Of a stretch of DNA of 20,391 nt, positions 301 to 20,391 are shown piece by piece. The notes beneath the pieces are model-generated. The model saw nothing but the letters and a program-made list of their open reading frames with translations, was not told the origin of the DNA and made no database searches. The translations under genes were made by a program, and so were the position numbers. The first letter of the stretch is position 1. Every line of letters begins with the position of its first letter. Source of the stretch: Streptosporangiaceae bacterium (GTDB taxonomy: Bacteria > Actinomycetota > Actinomycetes > Streptosporangiales > Streptosporangiaceae); contig JASHSZ010000387.1 in NCBI GenBank assembly GCA_030040815.1, positions 1-20,391 of the forward strand, read 5' to 3'.

Positions 301-1077
301 CTACTCGGTGTGCTCCCTTGCTGTCATGGCGTTCCGGCCGGGCCTCTTGCTGGGTCTGTAGCTCGGCCCGTTCATGAAGACCTGGTGGCTGGTGTTGATC
401 AGCCGGTCGAGCAGTGATTCGGCGACGACTGGGTTGGGGAACAGCGGATACCAGTCGGCGGGTGCCCGGTTGGCGGTGATCACCATGCTGTGGCCGGCTG
501 AGGCACGGGCCGAGACAAGTTCGTAGAGGTCGTCGGCCTGAGCAGCAGTGTGCTCGCGCATCGCGAAGTCGTCGAGGATGAGCACGGCCGGGCGGATTAG
601 CTCGGCGAGCCGCTTGTCGAAGCTGCGGTCGGCGTGCCCGCCGGCGAGGGTGGCGAGCAGGCGGCTGGTCTTGGTGAACCGGACCTCGGCGCCGTGGCGG
701 ATCGCGAGGTGACCCAGGGCCTGGGCGACGTGGGACTTGCCGACGCCGACCGGCCCGTAAAGAATCACCGACTCGCCGGCGGTCAGCCAGCGCAGCGCGG
801 CCAGGTCGCGGATCTGCGCGGCGGGCAGTTTCGGGCTGGCGGCGAAGTCGAAGCCCTCCAGGGTGGCCTGCTGCTCGAAGTGTGCCCGTCGCAGCCGGCG
901 GGTCATGGCGGCGGTTTCCCGGCGGGTGATCTCGTCGTGGCAGAGCACTTGCAGGAACTCCAGGTGACCGAGCTCGCCGGCGCGGGCCTGGGCCAGCCGG
1001 GCGTCGAGGGTCTCCAGCATCCCGGACAGCCTGAGCGTCCGCAGGCACGAGTGCAGGGCGGGTTCGACGATGCTCAT
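301..1077 (-). CDS. istB: IS21 helper ATPase IstB
   Basis: This is the AAA+ ATPase that assists IstA in transposition and target selection. The 258-residue length is typical. An N-terminal IstB domain (residues about 10-80) is followed by Walker A GPVGVGKS (108-115) and Walker B VLILDD (165-170). Further on, VITANRAPADWYPLF and LLDRLINTSHQVF are the sensor and C-terminal blocks usual for IstB. The ATG start overlaps the istA stop as ATGA (1074-1077), which indicates translational coupling. The short C-terminal tail after MNGPSYRPSK is basic. Nothing suggests inactivation. Confidence 0.93.
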   Translation of the reverse strand: MSIVEPALHSCLRTLRLSGMLETLDARLAQARAGELGHLEFLQVLCHDEITRRETAAMTRRLRRAHFEQQATLEGFDFAASPKLPAAQIRDLAALRWLTAGESVILYGPVGVGKSHVAQALGHLAIRHGAEVRFTKTSRLLATLAGGHADRSFDKRLAELIRPAVLILDDFAMREHTAAQADDLYELVSARASAGHSMVITANRAPADWYPLFPNPVVAESLLDRLINTSHQVFMNGPSYRPSKRPGRNAMTAREHTE

Positions 1078-2723
1078 GCCGGCCGTCCTGGCTCGGCAGC
1101 GGGTGCGTCGTCCCCGCCGGGACGACGGGTTTCGTCGCTCGCGGCGGGCAGCGGGACGACGTTCCCGAACAGCGTGTCGTCGCCGAACAGCGCGGCGGGG
1201 CCGTGCAGGAAGGCCGCGGCGCCGCCGTCACCGGCGCCGGCCGGCGGCGGGTCGGTCTCGGTGCCGGCGGCCAGGATGCCCTTGATGGTGCGGTAGGCCG
1301 GATCACCGACGAGCAGCGCCTTGCCGCAGGCGGCCTCGAGTCGGCCGGGGCCGTACTTGCCGGCCAGGCCGAGCACGCCCTGCGCGGCGCGCAGCCGGAA
1401 CAGCGCGTTGACTTCCAGCAGCTCGGTGATGACTGCGGTGGTGTGCTCGCCGATCTCGGCGGCGCGGGTGCGGCACCACACCGGGGTGCGCATCCGGAAG
1501 GCGATCTTTTCCGGCGGGTAGTGGGAGTAGTCGGTCTGCTTGCCGCGTGCCCGGAACGGGTGGGTGGCGATGAGCTCGCCCTTGCAGAAGATCTGCACCA
1601 TGGTCGTGGTCGAGCGGGCGTCGACCCTGGTGCCGATGAACCGCCACGGCACCGAGTACAACGTCTTGCCGACCTTGACATGGATGTCGGGCCCGACCAT
1701 GGGCCGTGACCATGCGGCGAGCACGAACACCGTCCGCGGCACCGGCCTGAGCTGCTCACGCTCCACGGCCTCGAACACGCTCAGGGGCGCGGCCCCGCCC
1801 AGTGGCCGGCAGGAACGGCGGCCGGCCACATTCAGCGACCAGTCCCGGGCGGCCTGCTGCATCGCCGTGAGCGAGGTGAACTCGCGGCCGCGGAAGAACG
1901 AGTCGCGGCAGTACGGCATCGGCCGCTCTACCCGAGCCTTGTCGCGTGGCCTGCGGGCCCTGGCCGGGTCGATCAGCAGCCCGTAGTGGGTGGCCAGCTC
2001 GGCATAAGACCGGTTGATCAGCGGGTCATACAAGTCCGCCCGTTCCACGCCGGTGCGCAGGTTGTCGGGCACCAGCCGCGCTGGCGTCCCGCCGAAGAAC
2101 TCAAACGCCTCCACGTGGCAGGCGGTCCAGGCCGCCTGATCCATGCTCAGCACCGGCCGCAGGAACAGGTGCCGCGAGCAGGCCAGCACGATCACGAACC
2201 CCCACACCCGGCGCCGCCGCCCGCCGACCGGGTCGACCCACCAGCCCAGATAGCCGTAGTCGATCTGACCCTCCTGGCCCGGCGGCAGATCCTCGCGCAG
2301 CACCCGCACCCGCTGCCGCAGCGACTCCTCAGGCAGGTTCGCCGCAATCCACCGCTTCAGCGACGCGACAGAAGCTTGCAGGCCGTGCTCATCACGCAGC
2401 CGCTGCCAGATCGTCGCCTTCGTCACGCCGGCCTGCAGCTGGGCCACGATGTAATCCCGGTGCGGCTCGATCAGCGGCCAGCTGATCTGCCGCAGACTAC
2501 TGTCGGTCAGCTGCGGGAACCACTCCCGCACCAGCACCGACCACTCCGGCTGCGTCCGGCCCGAGCCCGGCGCCAGCCCGGCAGCGATCGCGGGCGTCAG
2601 GTACTTCTTCACCGTCTTGCGATCCAGGCCAAGGCTGGTCGCGATCTCGCTCTGCGACCGGCCCGCATCCCAGTGGACCAAAATCTCCGTCACGTCCGGC
2701 ACGTCGAACGTCCTCCTCGCCAT
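1074..2723 (-). CDS. istA: IS21 transposase IstA
   Basis: This is the DDE recombinase of the element, 549 residues from the chosen ATG (MARRTFDV). An upstream in-frame start at 2792 would add 23 residues lacking family features and extend toward the terminal repeats, so it is not preferred. An N-terminal helix-turn-helix (about 11-42, SQSEIATSLGLDRKTVKKYL) is followed by a second DNA-binding region. The integrase core has candidate catalytic residues D155 (GQIDYGYLGWW), D220 (LVPDNLRTGV) and E266 (DKARVERPM). A C-terminal domain with a Mu-transposase-like beta-barrel (HVKVGKTLYSVPWRFIG) follows. istB is directly downstream with a 4-bp overlap. The frame is open throughout, so the element may be active. 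Confidence 0.92.
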   Translation of the reverse strand: MARRTFDVPDVTEILVHWDAGRSQSEIATSLGLDRKTVKKYLTPAIAAGLAPGSGRTQPEWSVLVREWFPQLTDSSLRQISWPLIEPHRDYIVAQLQAGVTKATIWQRLRDEHGLQASVASLKRWIAANLPEESLRQRVRVLREDLPPGQEGQIDYGYLGWWVDPVGGRRRRVWGFVIVLACSRHLFLRPVLSMDQAAWTACHVEAFEFFGGTPARLVPDNLRTGVERADLYDPLINRSYAELATHYGLLIDPARARRPRDKARVERPMPYCRDSFFRGREFTSLTAMQQAARDWSLNVAGRRSCRPLGGAAPLSVFEAVEREQLRPVPRTVFVLAAWSRPMVGPDIHVKVGKTLYSVPWRFIGTRVDARSTTTMVQIFCKGELIATHPFRARGKQTDYSHYPPEKIAFRMRTPVWCRTRAAEIGEHTTAVITELLEVNALFRLRAAQGVLGLAGKYGPGRLEAACGKALLVGDPAYRTIKGILAAGTETDPPPAGAGDGGAAAFLHGPAALFGDDTLFGNVVPLPAASDETRRPGGDDAPAAEPGRPA

Positions 2724-2809
2724 CAAGGCTCCCGTCAGCTCGTCTGAACGAGAGCAGCCTTCGACTTGCGAGGACCACACCAGCGGCGACACGCACGTCG
2801 TCCCGGTGC

Positions 2810-13672: not shown

Positions 13673-15172
13673 CTAGCGGTCTTGGTCCTCGTAGCCCGCT
13701 GGGCGCCCATCGAGGATGACGGTCTTGACCTCGAGGTAGTTCCGCAGGCCTTCTATGCCGCCTTCGCGGCCGATACCTGACTGCTTGAAGCCACCGAACG
13801 CGATCCCGAAATCGGTGCGGAAGGCGTTGTGCCCGACGGTTCCAGAGCGTAGCTGCGCCGCAACCTGGCGGGCGCGGTTGACGTCGTTGGTGAACACCGA
13901 GGCGTTGAGCCCGTAGATGGTGTCGTTGGCGACCCGGATCGCGTCGGCCTCGTCCTGCGCCGGGACGACGGACAGGACCGGGCCGAAGATCTCTTCCTGC
14001 GCGATGACCGACGAGTTGTCGACGTTGCCGAACACCGTGGGCTCGACGTAGTAGCCCCGCTCCAGGTCCTTGGGCCGCCCGCCGCCGGTGACCAACGTCG
14101 CGCCGTCGGCGATGCCCTTCGCGATATACCCCTCGACCCGATCCCGCTGCCGGCTAGCCACCAGCGGGCCCATCTGCGTCTGCACGTCGAACGGGTCGCC
14201 GACCCGGACTTGCGAGAATGTGCTGGCCAGCGCGTCGACGAACTCGTCATGGCGGCCAGCTGGAATCACGATTCGGGTCAGCGAGGAGCAGACCTGGCCG
14301 GACAGGAAGCACTCTGCGCCCGCAATGGCCTGAGCTGCGGTCGCGATGTCCATGTCGTCGAGAATCACCGCGGCCGACTTGCCGCCAAGCTCGAGCGTGC
14401 AGCGGGCGATCCGCTCGCCGCAGATCGAGCCGATCCGCCGCCCGGCGGCCGTCGACCCAGTGAACGCGATCTTGTCGACGCGAGAGTCGCGCACCAGCAG
14501 CTCGGACACCTCACGGTCGGCGGTCACCACGTTGAGCACGCCCGCCGGCAGCCCCGCAGCCTCCGCCGCCTCGGCCACCAGGTACCCCTCACCGGGCGCT
14601 TCGGGCGAGGACTTCAGGACGACCGTGCAGCCGGAGATGAGCGCCGGGGCGACCTTACTGGCGAGCAGGCCGATGGGGACGTTCCACGGGATAATCGCGC
14701 CGACGACACCAACTGGCTCTCGGACGATGAGGCCGAACTCGCCGCCGGCAGTGGGCTGGGCCGGTTCCTCCCAGGTGAACGTGTCGGCCAGGCCCGCGTA
14801 GTAGTCAAAGGTGTGAGCAGCGTCGTCGCCGAAGTACGGGGCCAAGATGTGCAGGCCCCCGGACTCGCGCGGCCAGATCTGGCCCAGGGCGTCGGTGCGT
14901 TCCCTGAGGCCGACCGCGATCGCGCGCATGTACTCGGCCCGCTGCGCGTGCGTCATCCGGGGCCAGGGCCCGTCGTCGAACGCGTGCCGAGCCGCCTCGA
15001 CGGCTCGCGATATGTCGGCCGCCTGCGCCTCGGCGACGCTGAAGTACACCTCCTCTGTGCCTGAGTCGATCACGTCAATCTTCGCGCTGGACGAGGGCTG
15101 TACCCACTCGCCGCCAATGAAGAACCGGTCCGTGTTGCGCAGCGGCGCCTTGATCTCATCTGCCAGGCTCAT
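13673..15172 (-). CDS. NAD(P)-dependent aldehyde dehydrogenase (second gene of the operon)
   Basis: A complete 499-residue ALDH-superfamily enzyme oxidising an aldehyde to its acid. Key residues are present: Asn164 in IIPWNVP, Lys187 in VVLKSSPEAP, general base Glu261 in LELGGKSA, nucleophile Cys295 in SGQVCSSLTR, and EEIFGPVLSV for cofactor binding. It starts 21 bp after the stop of the upstream ALDH gene, with GGAGGT 9 nt before the ATG, so the two form an operon. Its N-terminus is closely similar to the wreck at 16742-17049 (for example DRFFIGG.WV.PSS and VAEAQAADI), which indicates duplication. The substrate is not deducible. Confidence 0.95.
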   Translation of the reverse strand: MSLADEIKAPLRNTDRFFIGGEWVQPSSSAKIDVIDSGTEEVYFSVAEAQAADISRAVEAARHAFDDGPWPRMTHAQRAEYMRAIAVGLRERTDALGQIWPRESGGLHILAPYFGDDAAHTFDYYAGLADTFTWEEPAQPTAGGEFGLIVREPVGVVGAIIPWNVPIGLLASKVAPALISGCTVVLKSSPEAPGEGYLVAEAAEAAGLPAGVLNVVTADREVSELLVRDSRVDKIAFTGSTAAGRRIGSICGERIARCTLELGGKSAAVILDDMDIATAAQAIAGAECFLSGQVCSSLTRIVIPAGRHDEFVDALASTFSQVRVGDPFDVQTQMGPLVASRQRDRVEGYIAKGIADGATLVTGGGRPKDLERGYYVEPTVFGNVDNSSVIAQEEIFGPVLSVVPAQDEADAIRVANDTIYGLNASVFTNDVNRARQVAAQLRSGTVGHNAFRTDFGIAFGGFKQSGIGREGGIEGLRNYLEVKTVILDGRPAGYEDQDR

Positions 15173-15193: not shown

Positions 15194-16648
15194 TTACTTA
15201 GAAGGAACGCTCATGACGTGCGTCTCGGTGAAGTCGAGCATGCCCTCACGCCCGAGTTCGCGGCCGATCCCGCTCTGGTTGAAGCCTCCGAAGGGGGCCC
15301 GCTCGTCCACGGCGGTCGCGTTGTGGTTGTTGAAGAACGTCACGCCGGTGCGCAGCTGCCGAGCTACGGCCATCGCGTGCTCAGTGTCAGCCGACCAGAC
15401 CGACGAGCACAATCCGGACCAGCTGTCGTTGGCCTCCGCGATTGCCTCGGCCTCGGTGTCGTACGGAATCACCGGAAGCGCCGGGCCGAACTGCTCCTCG
15501 GTCACGATCCGCAGGTCGCGCGCTGGGTCGAGAACCAGTGCGGCCTGCAGATAGTTGCCGTCGGTCGCCGTGCTGGCGAAGTCACCGAACTGGAACACCT
15601 CCGCACCCGCCTGGCGGGCCTCCGCGACGAGGTCGGCGACGTAGTCCCGCTGGCGGCGGGTGTTCAGGGGCCCCATGGTTACCTCGGGGTCGAGGCCCGA
15701 GCCGATCCGCGTCGGCTCCAGTGCCGCCCGCAGTCCAGAGACGACCTCGTCATAGCGGCGGCGCGGCACGTACAGCCGCTTGAGCGCCATGCACACCTGC
15801 CCGGACGTCATGAACGTCGCTGCGGCTAGCCTGCCGATCGCCGCGTCGTCGAGGTCGGCGTCCTCCAGCACGATGGCCGGGTCGTTTCCACCGAGCTCGA
15901 GCGTCACGTTCGTCAGGTTGGGCGCCGCCATCGTCATGATCCGCCGGCCGCCTGCGACGCTGCCGGTGAAGCAGACGTGCCGGACCCTCGGGTCGCCGAC
16001 CACGACCGGCCCGATGACCTCGTCGAGTCCGGTGACCACGTTCAGCACGCCGGGTGGGAGGGCGGGCACGAGATGGCGCAGCGTGCGCACGACCGACAGT
16101 GGTGTGGTGGGCGGCGGCTTCACCACGACGGTGTTGCCCGCCATCAAGGCATACGGCAGGCTCGCCGCGAGGATCGCTAGGGGCCAGTTGAACGGGAAGA
16201 TGATGGTCACCACGCCGGCCGGCACGTGGGAGATCGTCGTCATGAACGGCGGCGCGGCGATGTGCTCACTCTCGTCGAGCAGCGGCGCGAACTCGGCCGC
16301 CTGGTGGAAGCGACCGGCGAACACGTGCAGGTCAATGGTCGCTTCGAAGCGGATCTTGCCGTTCTCCCTGACCAGCAGCTCGGCCCGCTCGTCAGCGTCG
16401 GCGTCAAGCCCGCTGAGCGCCTTGATGACGATGCCCGTCCGCTCGACAGCGCTGAGGGCGGCCCAGCCGGGCCAGGCCGCGTGGGCTGCGCTGACCGCGT
16501 CCCGCGCCTCGGCGGCCGACGCCGCGGCAGCGTAGCCGACGATCGCGCCTGGAGCAGAGGGATCGTGAACGGGGAACGACTCTGTGGTGGCCCGTTCTTC
16601 ACCGCCGATGAGCAGCGGCGTGCTGATGCTATCGGTCGATGCCGTCAT
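15194..16648 (-). CDS. Aldehyde dehydrogenase (first gene of the operon)
   Basis: A complete 484-residue ALDH of a different subfamily from its neighbours, resembling benzaldehyde/vanillin dehydrogenase-like enzymes (tentative). Catalytic set: Asn154 in FPFNWPLA, Lys177 in TVVVKPPP, Glu251 in LELGGNDP, Cys286 in SGQVCMALKR, and EEQFGPALPV. The N-terminus is short, with LLIGGEERA near residue 15. The ATG at 16648 has a weak purine-rich GAGAGG 12 nt upstream. A 21-bp dyad overlapping a plausible promoter lies 34 bp upstream, and the 499-residue ALDH follows after 21 bp, so this gene probably leads a PadR-type-regulated operon. Confidence 0.94.
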   Translation of the reverse strand: MTASTDSISTPLLIGGEERATTESFPVHDPSAPGAIVGYAAAASAAEARDAVSAAHAAWPGWAALSAVERTGIVIKALSGLDADADERAELLVRENGKIRFEATIDLHVFAGRFHQAAEFAPLLDESEHIAAPPFMTTISHVPAGVVTIIFPFNWPLAILAASLPYALMAGNTVVVKPPPTTPLSVVRTLRHLVPALPPGVLNVVTGLDEVIGPVVVGDPRVRHVCFTGSVAGGRRIMTMAAPNLTNVTLELGGNDPAIVLEDADLDDAAIGRLAAATFMTSGQVCMALKRLYVPRRRYDEVVSGLRAALEPTRIGSGLDPEVTMGPLNTRRQRDYVADLVAEARQAGAEVFQFGDFASTATDGNYLQAALVLDPARDLRIVTEEQFGPALPVIPYDTEAEAIAEANDSWSGLCSSVWSADTEHAMAVARQLRTGVTFFNNHNATAVDERAPFGGFNQSGIGRELGREGMLDFTETHVMSVPSK

Positions 16649-16681: not shown

Positions 16682-16702
16682 TGTAGTCTCATTGAGACTA
16701 CA
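16682..16702. promoter_or_regulatory. ALDH operator, site 1 (perfect 9-3-9 dyad)
   Basis: TGTAGTCTC (16682-16690), ATT and GAGACTACA (16694-16702) form a perfect inverted repeat 34 bp upstream of the first ALDH of the operon. On the minus strand it contains TAGTCT, which with TGGACC (16718-16723) at a 17-bp spacing makes a plausible promoter. A bound repressor would cover the -10. Related sites lie at 18144 and 19115. Confidence 0.75.
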
Positions 16703-16741
16703 AATCCGCGCTGGGCCGGTCCAGGGCCTGCCGGGCCAGGC

Positions 16742-17049
16742 TCACATGCCCGCAGCGCCGTACCTGGCTGTCGGGCCGTCCAGCAGGATGGCCTTGGACT
16801 CGGGTAGCCGGCCCGCTCGGCATGCGTGAGGCGGGGCCACGGCCCGCTGTCGAACGCCGCACGTGCCGCGCTCACCACCCGGCCGATGTCGGCCGCCTGC
16901 GCCTCGGCGACCGTGAGGTACACCCGCTCCGTGTGTGAGTCAATAACCTTGATCGTGGCGTCGGACGAGGGCGCGACCCACCGCCCACCGATGAAGAAGC
17001 GATCCGTGTGCCCGATCGGCGCGTTGACGTCGCTGGCGGAGATGGTCAT
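16742..17049 (-). pseudogene. Aldehyde dehydrogenase wreck: N-terminus joined to C-terminus
   Basis: From ATG at 17049 about 78 codons match the N-terminus of the 499-residue ALDH downstream (DRFFIGGRWVAPSSDATI, VYLTVAEAQAADI, GPWPRLTHAERAGY). Then, in a shifted frame, PESKAILLDGPTARYGAAGM and a stop follow, which is a typical ALDH C-terminal end (compare VKTVILDGRPAGYEDQ in the intact copy). About 390 residues, with the whole cofactor and catalytic region, are deleted between them, near 16803-16815. The start is coupled to the zinc-finger/HTH gene by an ATGA overlap, with GGGAGG 5 nt upstream, so a functional ALDH was once the second gene there. Confidence 0.85.
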
Positions 17050-18125
17050 GATGGCCTCCCATTCACGCTCCTGACGTCGCGTGCGGCGTGCCTGCGGAGC
17101 CACGTCTGCGGCTGGCCTGACGCCGCTGACAGCTGCTGCCAGGTCCATCCCTGAGCCCGGCGCTGCTCGATGTACTCGACGACCGAGTCGACTCCCAGCG
17201 CTGCTGCCACCTGGGCGACCCGAGTCTGGGCGGAATGTCGTTTGGCGGCATGCGGCGCAACTTCGAGGCCGTGTCGCGATAGCGCGGACGTCACGGCGTG
17301 AAAGGACAGTCCCACCTCACGCGCGATCGCGTTGACACTCCTGTGCTCGACGAGATGCCGGTGCCGGAGATAGCTGGCTACGTCCTCAAACCCGAGGGCG
17401 CGAAGGGCCGGCAGCCAGCGCGCATCAAGCCGGTCGACGCTGGCAACGGCTGCTTCGGCCGCCGCTGGGTCCAGCCGCGGCAGATGGCGTGACATCCAGT
17501 CCTTATGCAGGCCGCACGTGACGCTAATGCCAGTAAGGCTGTGGCCAGCGCGGATCATGTCCTGTACGAGCTGTCCGATGTCGGTGTAGCCACGCTGGTG
17601 TGCCACCTCGTCCGCCACGCCAGCTAGCCGCTGGTGGGCGCGTTCCCGGTTAGCCCGGGCGAGCTGAGCGCGCGCGGCTGCGGATACCGCTGTCCGCGAC
17701 CGCTGACGGCGTTGCTCGGGGAACGACCGCCCGCGTGCTGCGTCAGCGGCTTGTCTGGTGAGCTGGCCAGTGCGTGCGAGCTCGCGACCATGAGCGCTGC
17801 CGTTGCGCAGGGCCGGCTCGAAGACCATGCGCCCGCTGAAGGCGGCGGCCCGCAGCTTGCGCGTGTCGGCTCCCTCGAGCGGCTGGCGGCGCTCGAGCCC
17901 GAATGCCTCGCAGTACTGCGCCTTTATCCAGCCATGGGAGGCCAGGTGCGCGGCAACCGAGCGGAATGCGCGGCCGCAGAGGTAGCAGGTCACCAGGGCG
18001 CCGTCTTCGACGACCTGGCCGATGGGGGCGAAGTACGGCGTGCCATCGGGGAGGACTCCCACGATCGGCTTGCCTGGCAGGCATGCCGGGCTGCCCAGCA
18101 TAGAGTCAGCCGGATCAGCACGCAC
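17046..18125 (-). CDS. ROS/MucR-like zinc-finger and helix-turn-helix DNA-binding protein
   Basis: A 359-residue protein from GTG at 18125, chosen because GAAGGG lies 8 nt upstream; ATG at 18101 is an alternative. The frame is open to 18287, but those extra codons would run through the operator. Near the N-terminus CYLCGRAFRSVAAHLASHG gives Cys47, Cys50, His60 and His64, the C-x2-C-x9-H-x3-H finger of ROS/MucR regulators. The middle is Arg/Ala-rich. At least three helix-turn-helix-like segments follow (AGHSLTGISVTCGLHKDWMS; RSVNAIAREVGLSFHAVTSA; GWTWQQLSAASGQPQTWLRR). Its stop overlaps the start of the ALDH wreck by 4 bp, and a 21-bp ALDH operator lies just upstream. It probably regulates, or once regulated, ALDH expression. 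Confidence 0.75.
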   Translation of the reverse strand: MRADPADSMLGSPACLPGKPIVGVLPDGTPYFAPIGQVVEDGALVTCYLCGRAFRSVAAHLASHGWIKAQYCEAFGLERRQPLEGADTRKLRAAAFSGRMVFEPALRNGSAHGRELARTGQLTRQAADAARGRSFPEQRRQRSRTAVSAAARAQLARANRERAHQRLAGVADEVAHQRGYTDIGQLVQDMIRAGHSLTGISVTCGLHKDWMSRHLPRLDPAAAEAAVASVDRLDARWLPALRALGFEDVASYLRHRHLVEHRSVNAIAREVGLSFHAVTSALSRHGLEVAPHAAKRHSAQTRVAQVAAALGVDSVVEYIEQRRAQGWTWQQLSAASGQPQTWLRRHAARDVRSVNGRPS

Positions 18126-18143
18126 GCGGGTGGCCCTTCTCTC

Positions 18144-18164
18144 GGTAGTAACGCTGAGACTACC
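18144..18164. promoter_or_regulatory. ALDH operator, site 2 (between padR and the zinc-finger gene)
   Basis: On the minus strand this reads GGTAGTCTCA then GCGTTACTACC, sharing GTAGTCTCA and ACTAC with site 1 at identical 21-bp length. It lies 18 bp upstream of the GTG of the zinc-finger/HTH gene. A further CTTCTCT...AGAGAAG pair (18136-18142 and 18172-18178) flanks it and may form a hairpin. Confidence 0.65.
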
Positions 18165-18202
18165 AAGACTAAGAGAAGCCGGCTTTTGGCGGAAGGTTCG
18201 GT

Positions 18203-18757
18203 CTACCGCGCCTTCGCGACTCGGGTCGCTTCGCGCAGGGCCTCGTCCAGGAAGCGCAGGGTCGCGGCGACCGTCTCCCGTCGCCACAAGATGATCATCC
18301 GATCGAATCCGGCAGCCCTGGCCAGTCTCACCTGCAGCGCGCTGGCAACCGGCTCCAGCAGCGCGCGCTGGGCGACCAGCAACGGCGTTGGATCAGCACC
18401 CGCCCTTTCCAGCAGGGCCAGCTTCATCAAAAGCTCTGATCGAATGTCCCGGTTGTGGCGAGCGGGCTTGGTCAGCCATGCCGCCGCCGCGTCCCGGCCA
18501 GCTCCCGTGACGTCGACAAGCGATCGGACCGGACCTGCGCTGGACGGCTGCAGTTCGACCGTGGCCACCAGGCCGGCGGTCTCAAGCCGTTGCAGTGCCC
18601 GGTAGATGACGGGCTTGGGTACGCGCCATATCTGCCCGAGATCTCCGTCCTCGGACAGGGTGCGGGCCAGCGCGAAGCCGTGTGTCGGCGCCTCGGAGAT
18701 CAGGCACAGCACCAGCCACTCCGCTAGCGAAAGAGGCGGCTGGCTCGGATCAGGCAT
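18203..18757 (-). CDS. PadR-family transcriptional regulator
   Basis: A 184-residue winged-helix repressor. The N-terminal PadR domain (about 9-95) has LSLAEWLVLCLISEAPTHGF, IWRVPKPVIYRALQRLETAG (recognition helix and turn) and a wing region through LVDVTGAGRDAAAAWL. The C-terminal half is helical (PADR1_C-like), used for dimerisation. PadR was first described as a repressor of phenolic-acid decarboxylase genes, and relatives sense small aromatic or toxic compounds. The ATG is probably leaderless: TAGGGT (18764-18769) ends six bases before it. The ALDH operators at 16682, 18144 and 19115 surround it, making it the best candidate to bind them. This is inference; no binding is shown. Confidence 0.88.
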   Translation of the reverse strand: MPDPSQPPLSLAEWLVLCLISEAPTHGFALARTLSEDGDLGQIWRVPKPVIYRALQRLETAGLVATVELQPSSAGPVRSLVDVTGAGRDAAAAWLTKPARHNRDIRSELLMKLALLERAGADPTPLLVAQRALLEPVASALQVRLARAAGFDRMIILWRRETVAATLRFLDEALREATRVAKAR

Positions 18758-18921
18758 GCACCAACCCTACGGCTTGCCTGCCCGGTCCCTAATGGACGCC
18801 GACGGCCTGGCCCGATCTCCACGGCTCCTCCCCCGGTCTGCAGCCATCCGCTGAGGTGATCGCGAAGTTGATCAGCCTGGCCAGCACGAGCTGCTTCTCG
18901 CCTCAAGTCTGGCCCGGTTGC

Positions 18922-18956
18922 GGTGCTACTCGGTGCACAGCGCGCCGAGTAGCGCC
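18922..18956. terminator. Strong GC-rich hairpin in the padR/ALDH intergenic region
   Basis: GCTACTCGG (18925-18933) and CCGAGTAGC (18945-18953) are perfect 9-bp arms around an 11-nt loop, extendable to 12 pairs with one G-T. No transcribed gene ends here, so it may be a relic terminator, an attenuator or a protein site. Confidence 0.4.
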
Positions 18957-19114
18957 AGGGTGATCATCTGGCCGCCGGATCCCTTGATCCGCCTCAACCT
19001 GCTTGCGGCCGCCTGCCATCGCGCCTCTCTCTTCCGAGACGACAGCGTGAGACAGCCGACAGCGTGCGCGTGCCACCTCGGACGTCGTTCCCCGCCTTGT
19101 GCTGTCCTCACTTC

Positions 19115-19135
19115 TGTAGTCTCATAGTGACTACT
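19115..19135. promoter_or_regulatory. ALDH operator, site 3
   Basis: TGTAGTC-TCATAGT-GACTACT has the same 21-bp frame as site 1 and shares its first eleven bases. It lies 83 bp upstream of the ATG of the last ALDH gene, leaving room for a promoter. No clear -35 box could be assigned. Confidence 0.7.
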
Positions 19136-19218: not shown

Positions 19219-20391
19219 ATGACGGTCACTCTTGACCACAACGTCGAGGCCTTCATCGGCTCCCCCCGCCAGCTGTTTATCAACGGCCAGTGGGTAGATG
19301 CCGCATCGGGCAAGACGTTCGAGACTCCGAACCCGGCCACGGGCGAGACGCTTGCGCGGGTCGCCGAAGGAGATGCCGAGGACATCAACCGTGCCGTCCA
19401 AGCGGCTCGGGCCGCATTCGATGATGGTCCGTGGAGCCGGATGACGCCGTCCGAGCGCGGCCGCATTGTGTGGAAGATCGGTGACCTCATTCTCGAGCAC
19501 GTCGATGAGCTCGCACAGCTAGAGTCGCTGGACAACGGCAAGCCATACCTAGTCGCGCAGGCCGCCGACGTGCCGCTGGCCGCTGACCTGTTCCACTACA
19601 TGGCCGGCTGGGCGACCAAGATCGAGGGCAACACGATCGACATCTCGGTTCCGTACATGCCGGGCGCGAACTTCCACTCCTACACCCTGCGCGAGCCCGT
19701 CGGCGTGGTCGGTCAGATCATCCCGTGGAACTTCCCGCTGCTGATGGCGGCGTGGAAGCTGGGTCCCGCGCTCGCGACGGGCTGCACGGTCGTGCTGAAG
19801 CCTGCGGAGCAGACCCCGCTGACCGCGCTGCGGCTGGCTGAACTGATGGCCGAGGCCGGCGTTCCCGCCGGCGTCGTCAACGTCGTTCCCGGGTTCGGGG
19901 AGACGGCGGGCGCAGCACTGGCGGCTCACGACGACGTCGACAAGGTCGCGTTCACCGGCTCCACCGAGGTCGGCAAGCTTATCGTGCAGGCAGCCGCCGG
20001 GAACCTCAAGAAGCTCACCCTCGAACTCGGCGGCAAAAGCCCCAACATCGTCTTCGACGACGCCGAAGACAACGCGGTCGAGGGTGCCGCCAACGCGATC
20101 TTCTTTAACCACGGCCAGTGCTGCGTGGCGGGCTCGCGTCTGTTCGTGCACGAGAGCCGATACGACGAGGTCGTGGACGGCGTGGCCGAGATCGCCAAGT
20201 CCATCAAGCTGGGATCCGGCCTCGACCCAGCCACCCAGATGGGTCCGCTCGTGTCCGACGAGCAGTTCCGCCGCGTCACCGGCTTCCTGGAGTCTGGCAA
20301 GGCCGACGGCGCCACCGCGCTCACCGGCGGCGGCAGATTCGGCGACCGCGGATACTTCGTCGAGCCCACGGTGCTCACCAACACGCGCCCT
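19219..20391 (+). CDS. Aldehyde dehydrogenase, partial (runs off the window end)
   Basis: 391 residues are visible of an expected 490-500, with no stop before the window ends. It is a classical ALDH1/2-like enzyme: Asn171 in [11 protein letters not shown], Lys194 in [10 protein letters not shown], Glu269 in [12 protein letters not shown], and catalytic Cys302 in [11 protein letters not shown], at the canonical numbering of the family. The ATG is preceded by AAGGAGA at 9 nt. It belongs to a different subfamily from the two ALDHs of the operon, and operator site 3 lies upstream. NAD-dependent oxidation of an aliphatic or aromatic aldehyde is expected; the substrate is unknown. Confidence 0.95.

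Follow-up and report, generated by a model that had tools for sequence, protein, structure and literature searches.

The window analysed here, a stretch of 20,391 nucleotides (contig JASHSZ010000387.1) from a Streptosporangiaceae bacterium, ends in an aldehyde gene block. The block comprises the aldehyde dehydrogenase (ALDH) genes ALDH_A, ALDH_B and ALDH_C, the remnant of another ALDH gene, a gene for a zinc-finger protein (ZF), and padR, which encodes a regulator of the PadR family. Three copies of an inverted repeat (dyad) lie among these genes, and PadR is the protein predicted to read them.

The preliminary description of this DNA reported three 21-bp dyads, and all three are present as described (Table 1). 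Relative to GTAGTCTCA-N-TGAGACTAC, dyads 1, 2 and 3 contain 0, 3 and 2 mismatches, so that dyad 2 is the most divergent. When up to three mismatches are allowed, the pattern GTAGTCTCANTGAGACTAC matches the 20,391 bp exactly at these three sites, and it matches nowhere in 100 dinucleotide shuffles of the window. The simpler pattern TAGT-N9-ACTA, searched exactly, finds the same dyads and no fourth in the 20-kb window, where 0.04 matches are expected. The 17-bp core of the dyad is TAGTCTCA-N-TGAGACTA, which was scanned for as TAGTCTCANTGNNACTA.

The dyads are located upstream of a two-gene ALDH operon, a zinc-finger/helix-turn-helix (HTH) gene and a further ALDH gene, as originally proposed. Dyad 1 is 33 bp from the ATG of ALDH_B (16648), dyad 2 is 18 bp from the GTG of ZF (18125), and dyad 3 is 83 bp from the ATG of ALDH_C (19219). 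The GTG start is backed by N-termini conserved across several relatives. In all three cases, as judged by eye, the GTAGTCTCA half has the same orientation as the gene that follows it. Among named relatives, a Streptosporangiaceae metagenome-assembled genome, or MAG (L001, 78% identity), is nearest to the ZF locus. The spacing between dyad 3 and ALDH_C is nearly kept there, the 17-bp core being 84 bp from the gene in L001 and 86 bp in the window.

Table 1. Coordinates of the dyads and of the genes and segments around them
Feature	Position	Strand	Sequence or basis
Dyad 1, perfect 21-bp palindrome	16682..16702	.	TGTAGTCTCATTGAGACTACA; symmetric pairs 10/10
Dyad 2, imperfect	18144..18164	.	GGTAGTAACGCTGAGACTACC; symmetric pairs 7/10
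Dyad 3, imperfect	19115..19135	.	TGTAGTCTCATAGTGACTACT; symmetric pairs 7/10
padR, 184 aa, predicted dyad reader	18203..18757	-	Pfam PadR and genome-level association
ZF, Ros/MucR-like zinc-finger protein whose C-terminal part has helical HTH-like modules; predicted member of the regulon	17046..18125	-	
ALDH_B, first gene of dyad-1 operon	15194..16648	-	PF00171
ALDH_A, second gene of dyad-1 operon	13673..15172	-	PF00171
ALDH_C, runs past window end	19219..20391	+	
ALDH_A-type gene, 5' remnant of ~85 codons, directly after ZF	16804..17051	-	tblastn 74% over residues 8-83
Additional ~310 bp separating dyad 3 from padR, compared with L001	18772..19092	.	ends set by eye

Occurrence of the dyad in related genomes

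The scans covered 577 genomes of relatives, 180 from the Streptosporangiaceae and 397 from the order of Pseudonocardia acidicola (G009). Many of these are incomplete MAGs, and the open reading frames called by script are approximate. The group searches scored the best candidates in each genome (up to 5, 8, 11 or 18, depending on the search), so absences are non-exhaustive except in the lenient ZF search described below. The exact 19-bp pattern GTAGTCTCANTGAGACTAC has no match in the genome contigs of the relatives. Because the outer G is replaced by C in other relatives, the shorter pattern was used in later scans.

Among the 180 Streptosporangiaceae genomes, the exact dyad is found in 20, and 38 have a padR homologue (41-83% identity at E 1e-25 or better); ZF is found in 9 and the reversed pattern, used as a control, in 3. 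The dyad and the padR homologue are together in 19 of the 20 dyad genomes (Fisher 2.9e-14), and the association holds when only genomes lacking ZF are considered (Fisher 6.9e-10). These counts bear out the earlier proposal of an aldehyde regulon around padR with PadR as its likely reader. In the one dyad genome without the homologue (G431), a distant padR follows the exact dyad after ~41 bp. A ZF match at 1e-20 is absent from 13 of the 20 dyad genomes, even though the dyad and ZF agree in placement at all 15 ZF loci fetched. In 12 of the 13 genomes, a lenient search in which all candidates were scored found no ZF at E 0.01; the remaining genome (G565) has one weak partial match, covering ~100 residues in a 341-aa frame. 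Thus, in the Streptosporangiaceae set the exact dyad persists without ZF, and not without a PadR gene; co-occurrence with PadR extends beyond the range of ZF, which makes ZF the less likely reader.

Twelve genomes without ZF have both the padR homologue and the exact dyad. In 11 of them a dyad lies at most 80 bp from the padR match, and ALDH_C is in the same 3-kb stretch for 10 of these 11. In the twelfth (G569), dyads precede ALDH genes both at ~3 kb from padR and on a different contig. In the order of P. acidicola, the exact dyad is found in 4 of the 397 genomes, all with padR, and the reversed control in 1.

Within relatives the dyad is therefore not scattered. All 30 exact sites listed from the 577 genomes adjoin padR (a distant one in one case), ZF or an ALDH relative. 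A script placed 29 of them, and coordinates placed the remaining one, 21 bp away from a ZF match in L020. Two of the sites seem to be a single sequence present at the ends of two contigs. At six of the 30 sites, the dyad fronts a padR-ALDH_C operon. Dyads on other contigs or at a distance also precede ALDH_A or ALDH_C relatives (L043, L047 and L051), and one lies between ALDH_A- and ALDH_B-type genes (L129). Three genomes have exact or one-mismatch sites outside the surroundings of the padR homologue. In G431 and G457 these are immediately upstream of distant PadR genes, and in G434 the site falls inside a frame called as PadR-type, where that frame probably starts.

Sites with one mismatch, judged by position only, precede genes of the molybdenum aldehyde oxidase or xanthine dehydrogenase type (L044, L141 and L144), or are located by an XdhC gene (L142) or by a weak molybdopterin-oxidoreductase match (L139). 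Other such sites adjoin ALDH_C (L137) or an ALDH gene in a genome of the P. acidicola order without ZF (L132).

Two further arrangements were observed. In G001 (L042, 769-7689), a dyad lies between two ALDH genes; downstream of one of these come genes whose products have domains of the NADH dehydrogenase and Mrp-antiporter types. In four genomes (L109, L114, L118 and L135), a dyad adjoins a frame for a small protein with the motif NA(I/V)C(I/L)GGPCHG; a Pfam scan of the L135 protein, the only one of the four scanned, gave no match.

The PadR and zinc-finger proteins

The window PadR scores 38.6 bits against PF03551 (cut-off 27, E 1.1e-9), and thus has the winged-helix domain of the family. Its nearest solved chain by sequence is AphA (1yg2, 5.3e-10). 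With respect to the two signature tyrosines of the PadR winged helix, it keeps a Tyr in the recognition helix (IYRAL), and at an earlier position its subfamily shows HGF, against HPY or HAY in distant groups. PadR regulators are common in actinobacteria, and to our knowledge few of these have a known operator.

PadR proteins sense toxic compounds, and the response is production of detoxifying enzymes or pumps (PMC6457526, PMC5428041). LmrR represses both its own gene and its target, where it occupies inverted repeats that are imperfect, and the LftR operator is upstream of lftR (PMC5428041, PMC6457526). The PadR consensus in the literature is ATGT/ACAT with a canonical 8-bp spacing (PMC3506622, PMC5428041), the AphA operator is ATGCAA-N4-TTGCAT (PMC6855506), and PadR-2 proteins have ~100 residues (PMC6457526).

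The window PadR resembles the PadR-1 proteins (B. subtilis PadR, VanR and Vibrio AphA) in its N-terminal PadR winged helix, in its length of 184 aa (the class being ~200 residues), and in its predicted operator, an inverted repeat located near genes that remove reactive compounds. It differs from them in its predicted targets, which are aldehyde oxidation genes, and in the sequence of the predicted operator, TAGT-N9-ACTA, an odd 17-bp dyad with inner bases TCTCA, in contrast to the published ATGT/ACAT consensus and the operator of AphA. LmrR and LftR, which belong to PadR-2, control transporters; the window PadR is longer than the proteins of that class and is linked to ALDHs. A GT...AC element is common to ATGT-N8-ACAT and the window operator, and ATGT-N8-ACAT is common in the family without defining it, since AphA differs.

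The canonical operator was considered for the dyad genes and rejected. ATGT-N8-ACAT with up to one mismatch has two matches in the window (4532 and 6506; 1.73 expected), none near the padR, ALDH or ZF genes. Together with TAGT-N9-ACTA at all three dyads, this agrees with the preliminary suggestion of a specificity unlike ATGT/ACAT. Among the open-licence PMC articles listed, none has a title or abstract on this dyad or on a PadR-ALDH operator, which is no proof of absence. When the letters TAGTCTCA/TGAGACTA were searched, the titles among the matches listed look unrelated.

Distant PadR subgroups have related candidate operators. The G431 PadR is 31% identical to the window PadR (BLASTP). A search with it covered 90 genomes, of which 51 had matches, and the test used the 30 genomes for which a locus was fetched, each contributing one. 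TAGT-N9-ACTA occurs in the 250 bp upstream of 20 of the 30 (dinucleotide shuffles expect 0.02) and in none of the 30 downstream stretches. For window-type PadRs, the exact pattern is at most 250 bp upstream in 23 of 54 sequence-distinct hits, a few of them partial copies (mononucleotide shuffles expect 0.06). The outer TAGT/ACTA bases are constant, and the inner bases vary by PadR subgroup (TCTCA; GTCA; CATA). Of the 30 tested loci, the five nearest have TAGTGTCA-G-TGACACTA or near, and several others have forms of TAGTCATA. Recognition helices differ alongside the inner bases, with VPKPVIYRALQRL in the window PadR and GQRTSLYRTIDRL or AQRNSVYQTIDRL elsewhere. These sibling 17-bp dyads, with the same ends and other inner bases, were seen across the distant subgroups (L145-L174), and three upstream regions (L145, L146 and L166) have two overlapping dyads 15 bp apart.

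Ros/MucR zinc-finger regulators are known mainly from alphaproteobacteria. ZF resembles them in scoring just above the Pfam ROS_MUCR cut-off (27.0 bits, cut-off 25.4) and in keeping Cys2His2-type ligands: C39, C42, H52 and H56 are invariant in all 33 rows of an alignment of the window ZF with 32 relatives. Unlike them, it is actinobacterial, is ~350 aa long and has extra helical HTH-like modules. In the predicted model, residues ~141-340 are helical, with a predicted local distance difference test score mostly >80 in this block and a predicted template modelling score of 0.40 for the whole model. A fold search against solved structures gave no match at E 0.001 or better.

The 15 fetched ZF loci are from seven Streptosporangiaceae MAGs, two MAGs filed under Actinomycetota, four Pseudonocardia and two Saccharopolyspora. 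The dyad is upstream of ZF in all 15, at protein identities as low as 43%, and each genome yields a single padR match at E 1e-12 or better. With up to one mismatch, TAGTCTCANTGNNACTA has 55 strand matches in these genomes versus 9 for the reversed pattern. G009 and G262 have two ZF matches apiece, each with its own dyad (L054, L124-L125), and the second match in G262 spans only ~100 residues.

Candidate readers of the dyad

Very probably, an autoregulating PadR governs a regulon for aldehyde oxidation by way of a 17-bp operator class distinct from ATGT-N8-ACAT, and ZF is one member of this regulon. In this sequence-based proposal, a PadR dimer (winged helix, 184 aa) would bind the 17-bp core and, presumably acting as a repressor, block the promoters of aldehyde-oxidising enzymes. 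These enzymes would be NAD-dependent ALDHs and, tentatively, the molybdenum aldehyde oxidases that follow weaker sites in relatives. PadR would also block its own gene in many relatives and, in some lineages, the Ros/MucR-HTH gene encoding ZF, a putative downstream regulator. An inducer of the aldehyde type, either the substrate or a related toxic compound, might release PadR.

Several observations weigh against this proposal. In the window, 357 bp lie between padR (start at 18757) and dyad 3, and dyad 2 is separated from the padR stop by a spacer of only 38 bp, yet it lies still closer to the ZF start. Seventeen Streptosporangiaceae genomes have padR without ZF or an exact dyad, and 12 of them have no site (up to three mismatches) in the fetched padR stretch; the other five have a site with one or two mismatches adjoining padR. 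A scan for one-mismatch sites gave 10/20 padR genomes without the exact dyad (reversed control 10/20) and 2/20 genomes without padR (reversed control 14/20). Because these counts do not exceed the control, one-mismatch sites rest on position only. In ZF genomes, some of them are by genes without a clear aldehyde link, namely L015 10424 (IclR-type), L046 6199 (peroxidase/LysR), L049 (HTH_3), L050 and L053 (LysR), and L131, L135 (DJ-1/AraC-type) and L140 also have no obvious link. Finally, kinship inflates the counts; on a single tree, the dyad label, with variants of one or two mismatches included, changes 8 times, compared with a shuffled mean of 14.6.

Perhaps ZF is the reader instead, binding the dyad, repressing its own gene and controlling the ALDH genes, with PadR a bystander or an upstream input. 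The dyad precedes ZF at every fetched locus, and the two ZF matches in each of G009 and G262 have a dyad; in G005, G011 and G262, padR is either on a different contig or ~300 kb or more distant. Moreover, within the order of G009, the four ZF genomes are precisely those with the exact dyad, and the three with padR only lack it, a result that also counts against PadR and, taken alone, favours ZF. However, the 13 Streptosporangiaceae dyad genomes without a ZF match at 1e-20, the relatives of the distant PadR with their sibling dyads, and the failure of ZF to predict the exact dyad significantly among padR genomes (Fisher 0.12) make this explanation very unlikely, and ZF as sole reader was dropped because the dyad occurs with padR where ZF is missing. 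It is also unlikely, if somewhat less so, that PadR and ZF both read the dyad, ZF being a competitor, anti-repressor or activator where present. The presence of padR in all 15 genomes with a dyad before ZF would fit, as would the predicted HTH-like modules beside the zinc finger, but the placement is explained equally well by ZF as a PadR target, and contact of ZF with the dyad is conjecture. A Ros/MucR-type protein with extra HTH modules would then have been recruited, doubtfully, as second reader of a PadR operator; if so, two unrelated DNA-binding folds would compete for or share one 17-bp dyad in setting aldehyde oxidation.

A last alternative is that no dedicated regulator reads the dyads, which would be promoter or chance sequence with TAGTCT as a shared -10 box. 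All three window dyads have TAGTCT in sense orientation, and the -10 box proposed earlier for dyad 1 is right in its spacing, TGGACC and TAGTCT being 17 bp apart. Over 57 sites from the window and relatives, 15 of 171 hexamers at spacers of 16-18 match TTGACA at four or more positions, as do 13 of 114 at spacers of 9-10; the -35 signal is weak, with no distinct -35 at any constant distance. A -10 box would leave the ACTA half unexplained, and in these sites ACTA is conserved equally to TAGT, although the sites had been picked using both halves. The TAGTCTCA half is oriented oppositely in the six padR-ALDH_C operons, and the 30 exact matches are restricted to padR, ZF and ALDH surroundings. This alternative is thus highly improbable, and repression by PadR is the preferred explanation.

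The window strain and the operator class

The window also contains signs of local change. The ~85-codon remnant corresponds to a full-length ALDH gene in L002. In L001, the dyad is ~45 bp from padR, and the window has ~310 bp more in between, within which an inverted repeat, GCTACTCGG...CCGAGTAGC, was seen by eye at ~18925-18953. Because these extra bp part padR from the dyad that adjoins it in L001, autoregulation may be lost or altered in the window. Together, the extra bp, the remnant and the mismatches of dyad 2 suggest that the circuit may be partly rewired in this strain. The top NCBIfam model for the partial ALDH_C protein is phenylacetaldehyde dehydrogenase StyD, with a score under the model cut-off. 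In a plasmid comparison, 50 records match the window, and the 20 among the matches listed all fall within the ALDH_C stretch. A gene pair at the left end of the window (301-2792) looks by eye like istA/istB, which we take to be of the IS21 type.

TAGT-N9-ACTA would constitute a testable operator class, in which the outer bases are fixed and the inner bases vary with the PadR subgroup and the residues of the recognition helix. Such a class would let operators and regulons be predicted from sequence. Here, it points to a regulon for aldehyde oxidation in soil bacteria that are largely uncultured, and it would place an uncharacterised actinobacterial zinc-finger family in a regulatory circuit.

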